DNA of 56,259 bases from Klebsiella pneumoniae (GTDB taxonomy: Bacteria > Myxococcota_A > UBA796 > GCA-2862545), in the NCBI GenBank assembly GCA_945882675.1, contig CAMCWU010000002.1:1-56259 (forward strand). The letters are read 5' to 3'. The translations under genes were made by a program, and so were the position numbers. The notes beneath the pieces were generated by a model, which was not told the DNA's origin, searched no databases, and was given only the letters and a program-made list of their open reading frames with translations. Below are positions 5,542 to 14,091 of this stretch, one piece after another (the first letter of the stretch is position 1; every line of letters begins with the position of its first letter).

Positions 5542-5588
5542 GGGGGATCCGCGTGGGTCGGACCGCTCAGGGGCGCCGGTCCGCGCGC
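5542..5588 (+). repeat. 47-bp direct repeat, left copy flanking PIN/Phd module
   Basis: GGGGGATCCGCGTGGGTCGGACCGCTCAGGGGCGCCGGTCCGCGCGC; 39/47 identical by eye to 6297-6343, with the last 19 bp identical. Confidence 0.75.
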
Positions 5589-5598
5589 ACGGGAAGGG

Positions 5599-6024: not shown

Positions 6025-6259
6025 CGCTGCGATCTTCCGCCAGCACGGCTGCGAACGCGCCAGGCGGGAGCCGGAACCCGACGGTCTCGATCCTCCCCGT
6101 GCCACACCTGGATCCGACGTTCAACCCCGACTCGCCCAGGGGACGGAGCTCCGCCACCGGTCGGTTGCGCCGGGTGACGACGATGCGCTCGCCCTGCTCC
6201 ACACGCCCGAGGTACTCGGCGAGGTGCTGCTTCAGATCCTGGACCGGTACGGTTGTCAT
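6014..6259 (-). CDS. Phd/YefM-type antitoxin
   Basis: MTTVPVQDLKQHLAEYLGRVEQGERIVVTRRNRPVAELRPLG; overlaps the PIN toxin by 11 nt. Confidence 0.87.
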   Translation of the reverse strand: MTTVPVQDLKQHLAEYLGRVEQGERIVVTRRNRPVAELRPLGESGLNVGSRCGTGRIETVGFRLPPGAFAAVLAEDRSDDR

Positions 6260-6275
6260 GCCCGAAGCATATCAC

Positions 6276-6289
6276 GAACCGTACGGTTC
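6276..6289. promoter_or_regulatory. Putative TA operator: 14-bp perfect palindrome GAACCGTACGGTTC
   Basis: Lies 17-30 bp upstream of the antitoxin ATG; the GTACGGTT half recurs at 6247-6254 inside the first antitoxin codons; adjacent GATATGCT -10-like box on minus strand. Confidence 0.55.
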
Positions 6290-6296
6290 CGCAGGT

Positions 6297-6343
6297 GGGG
6301 GATCCGCAGGGGTCGTCGGGTTCTGGGGCGCCGGTCCGCGCGC
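6297..6343 (+). repeat. 47-bp direct repeat, right copy flanking PIN/Phd module
   Basis: GGGGGATCCGCAGGGGTCGTCGGGTTCTGGGGCGCCGGTCCGCGCGC, matches 5542-5588. Confidence 0.75.
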
Positions 6344-6360
6344 CCGCGACGTCGCTCCCG

Positions 6361-6510
6361 GGTGCGATCCCCCGAGGATACTCGAGTATCCGGCCCTCAC
6401 CGCACCCTGGGGGTGCGAACCCCCAGGGATACCCGAGTATCCGGCCCTCACCGCACCCTGGGGGTGCGAACTCCGCGGGATACTCGAGTATCCGGCCCTC
6501 ACCGCACCGG
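6361..6510. repeat. Three tandem ~51-bp repeats, each containing a palindrome GGATACTCGAGTATCC
   Basis: Units start at 6361, 6412 and 6463; palindromes at 6376-6391, 6427-6442 (one substitution) and 6478-6493; second hairpin CGCACCC-TGG-GGGTGCG at 6401-6417 and 6452-6468. Confidence 0.93.
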
Positions 6511-6512
6511 AG

Positions 6513-7529
6513 TCAGGGGTTTAGCTTCGGGACCTGCATGCTCGGCATGTAGTCCGCGAGCCCCCAGCAGTCCGCCTGGCCGGCGAGCGTCACGCCGCAC
6601 CCTTCGTACTCGCCGAGGCCGATCATCGCCATCGGCTCGGGGAACGGGTCGGGCCAGAGGTCGAACCCGGCGTCGAGGCCGGCGCCCCACCAGCACTTCG
6701 CGACACCAGCGGCGTCGATTACGCAGGTGGCGCCGTCGAACGCCTCGATCTGGGCCCAAACACCGGGCGGTGGATCCGGGAAGGGGTCGGGCTCCGGGTC
6801 GAAGAGCGTGTCGGTCCCCCAGCAATACGCCGTGCCGGCAGCGTCCAGCCCGCACGAGTGCCGGCGGCCCACGGCGATCTGCGTCAGCGCGACCCCCGCG
6901 GGCGGGAGATCGTCCCCCCACTGGGTGCCGTACCCCCAACAGTGAAGCGTTCCGTCCTCCAGGACGCCGCACGCGTTCGACGAGTCAATCTGGTAGTCGA
7001 CGACCGGCTCCGCAGGCGCCCGCGCCGTGGCGAAGGCGTCGTCACCCCAACAGGTGAGCATGCCGGCCGCGTCCCGGGCGCACGCGGCAGCATGGCCGAC
7101 GTTCACGGACTCGAAGGTTTCGGACGGCGTCTCTGGGACGATGTCCTTGCCGGAGCTGTCCGGAAAGTCGCAACCCCAGCACGCGACCGTCCCGTCGGAG
7201 CGCAACCCGCAAGCCTCAAAGATGCCCACCGAGATCTGGGTGAACGTTTCGGTCGGCGGTGGTTCCGCCTTCGCGCACTCCGCCACGCCCCAGCAGCGAA
7301 CGGTCCCGTCGCTCACCAGTCCGCAGGCAAACTGCGCACCGATGTCGGCGGAGACCCACGTCAAGTCAACGTCGTCGCCGGTGTCCTCGGGGCCGGCACT
7401 GTTGCCGGTCTCCGCGACCGGCGGGTCCGTGTCCACCAGGGTGGTCTGGTCGGCCTCCACAGGTGCCACGTCGCCGGTGTCGAACGGAGTCTTGGGGGCG
7501 CAGGCCATGAGCAAGATGGCCAGCCACAT
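6513..7529 (-). CDS. RCC1-repeat Cys-rich lipoprotein
   Basis: Signal MWLAILLMACAPK, DTGD-type linker, then about seven repeats of the type CGLVSDGTVRCWG / CGLRSDGTVACWG / CGVLEDGTLHCWG. Confidence 0.85.
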   Translation of the reverse strand: MWLAILLMACAPKTPFDTGDVAPVEADQTTLVDTDPPVAETGNSAGPEDTGDDVDLTWVSADIGAQFACGLVSDGTVRCWGVAECAKAEPPPTETFTQISVGIFEACGLRSDGTVACWGCDFPDSSGKDIVPETPSETFESVNVGHAAACARDAAGMLTCWGDDAFATARAPAEPVVDYQIDSSNACGVLEDGTLHCWGYGTQWGDDLPPAGVALTQIAVGRRHSCGLDAAGTAYCWGTDTLFDPEPDPFPDPPPGVWAQIEAFDGATCVIDAAGVAKCWWGAGLDAGFDLWPDPFPEPMAMIGLGEYEGCGVTLAGQADCWGLADYMPSMQVPKLNP

Positions 7530-7603
7530 GACGGACGCTCCGCGCGATGACCCCACACTACATCGCACGCTCTTCGGGTGTCCACCACCGCCGCGGGGCG
7601 CGG

Positions 7604-12345: not shown

Positions 12346-14091
12346 CTACTCGAAGCGGACGCCCGTGATCTGACGGGGCCGAATGACGAAGGTTTGAGCG
12401 TCGTGACCATCGACCTCGACCGAGTGCTCCCCGACGGGGAGCGGGATCTTCGCCGGGGTGACGCGACCCGTGGCGACGCCGTCGACCCGGATGGCCGCCC
12501 CGAGAGGGGCTGAGGTGACCTGGAGCTCACCGGTCTCGGCGACCGCGGCCGGGGCAGGCTCGGGGACGGGAACGGGAACGGGAACGGGCTCGGGAACGGG
12601 AACGGGCTCGGGAACGGGCCTTCCCACTCCCTCCCCCGCGCGGGGAGGGTCGCGGAGGGGGGCGACGGGCTCGGCAACGGGCTCGGGAACCGGACTTCCC
12701 ACTCGCTCCCCCTCGTGGGGAGGGTCGGGGAGGGGGGCGACGGGAGCGGGCTCGGGGGCGCTGATCGTCACCGGCGTCGTTTCGACCGGATCGGGGCGTT
12801 GTACCCACCAGACGCCGAAAAACAGCAAGATTGCAGCGAGCAGGAGGCCGCCGCCCCCGACCACGCCGAGGAACGCCCCGCCCGCGATGATCCCCGCGGG
12901 CCGGACCAGGCTGATCGACGTATCCGTGGCGTCCCGGACATGGCGCGCCGCGCGCTGGCCGGGCCGCGGGGGCTCCGGCCGCATCGGCCGCGGGGCCTCC
13001 AGCGACGCCTCCATCGACGCCGCGAGCGACCGCTTCTCGATCGACGACGAGTCCGAGAACATCCCGCGCGGGTACGTGGAGCCGTCCACGCCCGAGCCGT
13101 CCTCGATCTGCACGACGACGCCCGGCGTCGTAAAGCTCTCGAGCTTGGCCTCGATCCGCTCGACCACGGTCGGCGAGGACTTGAGGAGGAACGCCGCGAC
13201 CTCTTCCGGCTCCGGCCGACCGCCGAGGGCGCCCAGCACCCCCACCAGCGCGTCGCGGAGCTCCGCCGCCGACTGGTAGCGGTCGTTTCGGTCGCGCTGC
13301 ATCATCCGCTCGTAGACCCGCCGGAGCACTGCCGGATCCGGTAGATCGGGGGCCTCCGGCATCTTCGGGATCTCGCCCGAGAGCATCTTGTGCAGGATCT
13401 GGATCTGGTTCAGGCCGGTGTACGGCCCGGCCCCGGCCATGAGCTCGTACAGCGTGAGCCCGACCGCGTACAGATCCGCGCGGGCGTCCACGATCTCCCC
13501 CGAGATCTGCTCGGGCGCCATGTACGAGAACTTGCCCTTGACGTGGTCCGTCCGCGTCCGCTCCAGCCGGTCCGTCGCCGACGCGACCCCGAAGTCGATG
13601 AGCTTCACGTCCCCCCGGATCGACACCATGATGTTCCGCGGGTTCACGTCGCGGTGGACGATCGCCATGGGCTTGCCGAGGGCGTCCCGCTTCTTGTGCG
13701 CGTGATCGAGCGCTTCGCACACGGACGCCAGGATCGCGAGCGCGAACCGCAGCGGCACCTTCTGCCGCCGGTCCGACAGCTCCGAGATGAGCTGGCGCAG
13801 GTCCATCCCGGGCACGTACTCGAGGACCAGGTAGTAATCGTCGCCCTCCCGCCCGAAGTCGTAGACGCGGCCGATGTTCGGGTGGTTCAGCTCGGCCGTA
13901 ATCCGAGCTTCGTCCTTGAACATCCGCACGAACGCGTCGTCCGCCGTGCGGTCCGCCTTGATCCGCTTGATCACGACGAGGCGGATGTAGCCGGCCTCCT
14001 CGACCGCGCGCCGCGCGAGATCGACCTCCGACATGCCGCCGACCCCGAGACGCTCGAGGAGGACATAGTTGGCGAAGGGGGCGGGGAACAA
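12346..14091 (-). CDS. Ser/Thr protein kinase with TM helix and C-terminal PEGA-like domain
   Basis: ANYVLLERLGVGGMSEVDLARR...VVIKRIK...IVHRDVNPRNIMV...KLIDFGVAS...YMAPEQ; TM; Pro/Val/Glu linker; GELQVTSAPLGAAIRVDGVATGRVTPAKIPLPVGEHSVEVDG. TTG start at 14091 proposed. Confidence 0.92.
   Translation of the reverse strand: MFPAPFANYVLLERLGVGGMSEVDLARRAVEEAGYIRLVVIKRIKADRTADDAFVRMFKDEARITAELNHPNIGRVYDFGREGDDYYLVLEYVPGMDLRQLISELSDRRQKVPLRFALAILASVCEALDHAHKKRDALGKPMAIVHRDVNPRNIMVSIRGDVKLIDFGVASATDRLERTRTDHVKGKFSYMAPEQISGEIVDARADLYAVGLTLYELMAGAGPYTGLNQIQILHKMLSGEIPKMPEAPDLPDPAVLRRVYERMMQRDRNDRYQSAAELRDALVGVLGALGGRPEPEEVAAFLLKSSPTVVERIEAKLESFTTPGVVVQIEDGSGVDGSTYPRGMFSDSSSIEKRSLAASMEASLEAPRPMRPEPPRPGQRAARHVRDATDTSISLVRPAGIIAGGAFLGVVGGGGLLLAAILLFFGVWWVQRPDPVETTPVTISAPEPAPVAPLPDPPHEGERVGSPVPEPVAEPVAPLRDPPRAGEGVGRPVPEPVPVPEPVPVPVPVPEPAPAAVAETGELQVTSAPLGAAIRVDGVATGRVTPAKIPLPVGEHSVEVDGHDAQTFVIRPRQITGVRFE
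12561..12619. repeat. GGGAAC/GGGCTC hexamer microsatellite encoding a (PVPEPV)n linker
   Basis: Tandem GGGAACGGGAACGGGCTC within the kinase ORF. Confidence 0.85.
12620..12669. repeat. 50-bp GC-rich palindromic repeat copy 1, inside kinase ORF
   Basis: CTTCCCACTCCCTCCCCCGCGCGGGGAGGGTCGCGGAGGGGGGCGACGGG; 46/50 identical to 12695-12744. Confidence 0.9.
12695..12744. repeat. 50-bp GC-rich palindromic repeat copy 2, inside kinase ORF
   Basis: CTTCCCACTCGCTCCCCCTCGTGGGGAGGGTCGGGGAGGGGGGCGACGGG. Confidence 0.9.

Follow-up and report, generated by a model that had tools for sequence, protein, structure and literature searches.

A REP-like array of phased double hairpins and its probable partner, a divergent Y1-type protein encoded elsewhere in the genome

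Why should three nearly identical palindromic units lie where an RCC1-repeat lipoprotein gene stops, ahead of the start of a Phd-type antitoxin gene? The window, that is, the whole stretch of 56,259 nucleotides analysed here (contig CAMCWU010000002.1 of assembly GCA_945882675.1), holds one such array (Table 1). An earlier note on this DNA had offered two local readings: a phased binding array controlling the PIN/Phd operon, or a repeated terminator for the lipoprotein gene. We consider, with a probability of about 0.83, that the array represents one dispersed copy of a REP-like element whose transposase, a divergent HUH/Y1 tyrosine enzyme of the REP-associated kind, is encoded elsewhere, in a REPtron-like system whose hairpins are phased and run head to tail. 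Few small repeats are as common in bacteria as REP systems, and their spread by the transposase and their persistence give such a system its interest.

The window array and its hairpin plan

A repeat search places the array at 6360-6508, with a spacing of exactly 51 bp (TRF: period 51, 2.9 copies, 91% matches). The three tandem units of the earlier note are thereby confirmed, with starts one base away from those it gave, as is its 16-bp palindrome, which units 1 and 3 carry in perfect form and unit 2 with a single T to C change. This core matches the window three times where 0.13 matches are expected, and none of 100 shuffles reaches three. Regular palindromic repeats are also found in CRISPR; here, however, the whole 51-bp unit repeats and there are no unique spacers, and we agree with the earlier view that the array is not a CRISPR. 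The second hairpin described at that time, CGCACCC-TGG-GGGTGCG, does occur twice (6401-6417 and 6452-6468), but a unit of the form arm-core-arm (GGGTGCG ... core ... CGCACCC) is a better description than an alternation of two hairpins, both because the window array starts and finishes on arms in that way and because sister arrays of 73 bp keep the arm-core-arm geometry while the arms that face each other across the junction of two units are widely separated. Each unit is then a 48-nt double hairpin, consisting of an arm, 9 nt, the 16-bp core, 9 nt and an arm. When folded as single-stranded DNA, units 1 and 2 give this double hairpin and unit 3 comes close to it, and both strands of the array beat shuffles (z -4.2 for the strand transcribed for the RCC1-type gene and -5.1 for the other).

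The plan is fixed while the sequence that fills it changes. Arrays in the window and on contig 99 have the arms GGGTGCG/CGCACCC, the contig 13 array has CCCGCG/CGCGGG, and the 73-bp arrays have CCGTCGATTCG/CGAATCGAAGG, which pair further inward; arms are wholly different between these arrays yet complementary. Over 21 units, both partners are altered in 28 cells, where shuffles give 12.6 (none of 500 reached 28), a result that rests on about three arm families and hence on few events, though each swaps a whole arm. Sliding the partner arm abolishes pairing, and five unrelated families share the same geometry when it is counted from the core centre.

Table 1. Features of the window, and related arrays and genes on other contigs of the same genome
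Feature	Location	Strand	Description
Array unit 1	window, 6360-6410		left arm GGGTGCG 6360-6366; core 6376-6391; right arm CGCACCC 6401-6407; 3-nt linker
Array unit 2	window, 6411-6461		left arm 6411-6417; core GGATACCCGAGTATCC 6427-6442; right arm 6452-6458; 3-nt linker
Array unit 3	window, 6462-6508		left arm 6462-6468; core 6478-6493; right arm CGCACC 6503-6508; ends 4 bases from the stop codon of the RCC1-type gene
RCC1-repeat lipoprotein gene	window, 6513-7535	minus	
Phd-type antitoxin gene	window, start 6259		PIN gene after it
Perfect palindrome GAACCGTACGGTTC	window, 6276-6289		inverted near-copy at 6241-6254
Second dispersed repeat	window, 6300-6354 and 5545-5594		GGGGCGCCGGTCCGCGCGCC ..., GGCGCCGGTCCGCGCGCC; first copy next to the array
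75-bp repeat	window, 12597-12744		two copies
Window array	contig 2		51 bp, three units
Core array	contig 13		52 bp, three units, middle one decayed
Core array	contig 99		51 bp, two units
Core arrays	contigs 160, 205 and 242		73 bp, three units each
Y1-like gene	contig 99, 5474-6283		protein of 271 aa; own array with the arms and core of the window array
Y1-like gene	contig 3		52-bp arrays on both sides; core GGATGGTCAACCATCC; about 40 sites genome-wide
Y1-like gene	contig 76		52-bp array, three units; arms GTGTCTC/GAGACAC; one further place
Y1-like gene	contig 220		52-bp array, seven units; core GGCTGGTGTACCAGCC; also dispersed (some weaker matches may be chance; reversed control 8-12)

Dispersal of the element and the Y1-like genes beside it

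In the genome to which the window belongs (3.71 Mb in 377 contigs, 81% complete), the core GGATACTCGAGTATCC is found at 21 sites on ten contigs with at most one mismatch; the reversed control gives none. Most of these sites are tandem pairs or triplets, with tandem arrays in six of the ten contigs and single or scattered copies in the others. The genes alongside (IleRS, AspRS, ExbD, VF530 and unknown genes) have no shared theme, and no TA genes were seen next to the element at about nine further places. The core had no match in any of 93 relatives, including a genome of the same genus, in which no Y1-like gene was found either; in a comparison with that genome, gene order is lost after enolase and there is no direct empty site. 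Plasmid records searched with the array and the protein gave no match. Exact matches to the 16-mer in other species (11 in a collection of 257 Gb) stand singly in scattered taxa and can be put down to chance. The earlier note had held that hundreds of copies in random contexts, as of a plain REP-type element, or a lack of conservation in close relatives would speak against regulatory DNA. The element is indeed dispersed in the manner of a REP and is not conserved in close relatives, but its copies number in the tens, not hundreds, and form phased arrays tied to a transposase-like gene.

A Pfam Y1_Tnp search of this genome gave no match at E 0.001, and the gene was therefore located by reading the open reading frames beside the arrays. 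Two related frames, 51% identical and neither named by Pfam, lie 136 bp from the contig 99 array and about 10 bp from the contig 205 array. Including the paralogues found by protein search (39-53% identical), five Y1-like genes are present, on contigs 99, 205, 3, 76 and 220, each adjoining its own array of 51, 52 or 73 bp. As in a REPtron, each gene has palindromes of its own type at its side, and these recur dispersed elsewhere. The window array and the contig 99 array are 85% identical over 125 bp, and because their arms are the same, we take the contig 99 protein to be the probable partner of the window array.

The Y1-like proteins carry D-[ED]-H-x-H (D-N-H in one) and Tyr-x-x-Arg-Gln...His. 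In 11 proteins of the family, H46-x-H48, Y97, the RQ pair and the last His are invariant, and Gln101 is at +4 of Tyr97 in every one. They thus combine an HUH motif with one catalytic-type Tyr in a Y1 fold, as RAYT/REPtron members do. The NCBIfam REP_Tyr_transpos model (NF047646) matches six of the 11 (best E 1e-5), with one match spanning both the HUH and Tyr regions, at scores far below its cut-off (at most 25.5 of 80 bits); Pfam Y1_Tnp (PF01797) likewise stays under its own, at 13.5 of 23 bits (E 0.07-0.08). An AlphaFold2 model (pLDDT 88.7, pTM 0.87) has as its best Foldseek match in the PDB the E. coli RAYT-REP complex, 4er8 (probability 1.00, E 3e-3, TM 0.35/0.53), followed by IS608 TnpA. 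The likeness to RAYT is good in fold and motifs and remote in sequence. The contig 220 gene (L162:1400-2500) is closer to class 2 TnpA-REP (YILDN ... WRWSS), yet it too has a 52-bp array, and phasing extends in this gene beyond the Tyr-x-x-Arg-Gln branch. Directly after the 73-bp array of contig 160 comes one of the contig 220 type (L019:3007-3118), placing two element families side by side.

Across the order, Y1-like genes were found in 24 of 63 genomes, with 1-19 per genome. A tandem array (TRF, period at least 40, within about 1.5 kb) lies near 55 of 95 gene loci as against 2 of 40 control blocks taken from the contigs of these loci (Fisher p 1.4e-9). The 55 include a small number of coding or low-complexity repeats (e.g. 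L131 2797-2966, L172, L212), which makes the true figure somewhat lower, and some of the 40 loci without a TRF array owe this to contig ends. In a sample of the phylum the gene occurs in 22 of 237 genomes, 18 of them from this order.

Array periods and helical spacing

The periods of the arrays at loci of the order are quantised. They fall at 50-53 bp (32 arrays), 62-65, 70-73 and 82-84 bp, with a few longer and none at 55-61 or 74-81 bp, and these clusters correspond to about 5, 6, 7 and 8 helical turns. Among arrays whose arms beat shuffles, the periods away from the mode are 62, 62, 63, 63, 64, 65, 73, 83, 84 and 95 bp. Their fit to a lattice counted from the mode has a p of about 0.002 at 10.5 bp, 0.006 at 10.4 and 0.0006 at 10.6, statistics in which related arrays are not fully independent; the arm-and-loop filter, which drops real arrays with an arm mismatch, was applied solely to this test. 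The hairpins mostly span 42-50 nt, and it is mainly the linker that changes with the period. Four genomes from outside the order, read after the pattern had been formed, gave periods of 72 bp (G173), 73 and 73 bp (G063) and three times 52 bp (G128), the exceptions being one low-complexity array of 56 bp in G173 and no array in G251. The earlier remark that 51 bp is near five turns, with the palindromes on nearly the same face, is thus strengthened by related arrays at 51/52, 62/63, 73 and 83/84 bp. We found no report of helical phasing, or of phased hairpins running head to tail, in the RAYT/REP literature that we covered, which consisted mostly of papers available without subscription, so that a report elsewhere may exist.

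For TnpA-REP, the binding and cutting of single-stranded REP hairpins are established (PMC8266576). In the system described here, the 48-nt unit would be recognised as folded DNA, and the protein would bind and nick its own hairpins, using the His-x-His metal site and Tyr as nucleophile, when these fold in single-stranded or supercoiled DNA. The element may thereby have been copied or moved to the site after the RCC1-type gene, and the tandem copies may have arisen together with some adjoining DNA. That the protein cuts DNA, that the element moves and that phasing has a role are all inferences. The helical spacing is puzzling, as hairpins in a single strand alone would not require it. It could bring neighbouring units onto one face of duplex or cruciform DNA for binding, for example by a multimer or via the C-terminal part of the protein. 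Somewhat short of even odds, in our estimate, is the wider proposal that a separate HUH Y1 lineage, at home in this order and sparse in the phylum, acts on phased arrays by multimeric recognition of duplex or cruciform DNA on one face, with proteins that may be domesticated, each with its own fast-changing hairpin sequence on a fixed plan. Dozens of unrelated hairpin sequences with one plan and one set of spacings amount to a natural experiment, in which the enzyme's reading of sequence (arms and core) is set apart from its measuring of distance (in helical turns). Quantised periods point to duplex DNA, which current single-strand models of REP handling do not require.

Known systems and alternative readings

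The system shares with REPtrons (TnpA-REP/RAYT with its REPs; class 2 of PMC6006769; 4er8) an HUH and Tyr enzyme of single-strand type, one gene per hairpin type, palindromes of its own flanking the gene and copies dispersed outside genes. It differs in that a GTAG (GT[AG]G) foot, sought in the window's unit, is absent; in having Tyr-x-x-Arg-Gln instead of Tyr-x-x-x-Asn-Pro, no conserved Trp between HUH and Tyr, and an HUH-Tyr distance of 49 rather than about 58-67; and in that its units are direct repeats, head to tail, whereas those of BIMEs and REPINs form inverted pairs. Class 3 TnpA-Y1 proteins likewise have Gln in the Y motif and a mixture of IS and REPtron traits, and atypical secondary structures adjoin their genes, but their Gln is at +5 (here +4) and they have a CnGA foot; although classes 2.6 and 3 both have atypical structures, their Y motifs are unlike those of this family (PMC6006769). 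In Pseudomonas fluorescens SBW25, tandem REPIN clusters, with peaks of REP spacing at 71, 110 and 184 bp, also repeat together with flanking DNA and adjoin a RAYT gene, but they consist of REP doublets, in contrast to the single double-hairpins at 51, 62, 73 or 84 bp seen here (PMC3116915). CGTC-tagged REPs are short palindromes too, and CGTC stands at the arm in some units of the system described here (in the contig 3 and 73-bp arrays); those REPs, however, have no adjacent transposase and differ in stems and loops, and head-to-tail pairs are rare in both the GTAG and CGTC families (PMC3733652).

Four other explanations were weighed. Neutral minisatellites, in which old REP-like palindromes were expanded by slippage and the transposase has no present role, would account for the variable copy number (about 2 to 11), for linkers that carry adjoining DNA and for decayed units; slippage predicts neither the association with the gene, nor the covariation of the arms, nor periods on a helical lattice, and we regard this explanation as improbable. 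We think it just as improbable that the array is in essence a hairpin cluster ending transcription or protecting the mRNA of the RCC1-type gene, a REP put to use at a 3' end. REP roles in gene expression are on record (PMC8266576), and the array starts 4 bases after the stop codon, with a strong fold on the transcribed strand. The terminator proposed earlier nevertheless found no support: a search of the array for an intrinsic terminator (G+C-rich hairpin plus T-run), on both strands, and for a sigma-70 promoter gave none, Rfam gave no match, and copies elsewhere are not limited to gene ends. Such a role may be a side effect of the element rather than its origin.

A plain insertion sequence of the IS200/IS605 type, with short non-autonomous relatives, is very unlikely. 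The Y1-type protein with Gln at +4 of Tyr does recall class 1 of PMC6006769, but the genes within this genome are so unlike one another that there are no recent copies, the hairpins form tandem arrays instead of standing one at each end, and the proteins carry a long extra C-terminal part that is absent from IS200 enzymes. Less likely still is the operator for a dimeric regulator of the Phd/PIN operon that the earlier note envisaged, for although the array lies 100 bp upstream of phd with a spacing near five turns, the element is not tied to a TA promoter or kept with the operon as a type II TA operator would be, standing instead beside many unrelated genes and transposase-like genes and missing from the nearest relative, and a separate perfect palindrome lies between the array and phd.

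This palindrome, GAACCGTACGGTTC, with its inverted near-copy, lies around the phd start and is the likelier candidate for an autoregulatory operator of the operon. The REP-like element is not the only repeat in this region. A second dispersed repeat, of a different family (Table 1), has about 30 partial copies in the genome and is found close to several of the hairpin arrays. Intergenic repeats shared by L018:140-300 and L023:2700-2930 (CCCTCCCCC...GGGGGAGGG) lie beside single copies of the core and are read by ORF finders as SPTLPHKGGGG. Further along the window, the two copies of a 75-bp repeat contain a G+C-rich hairpin.
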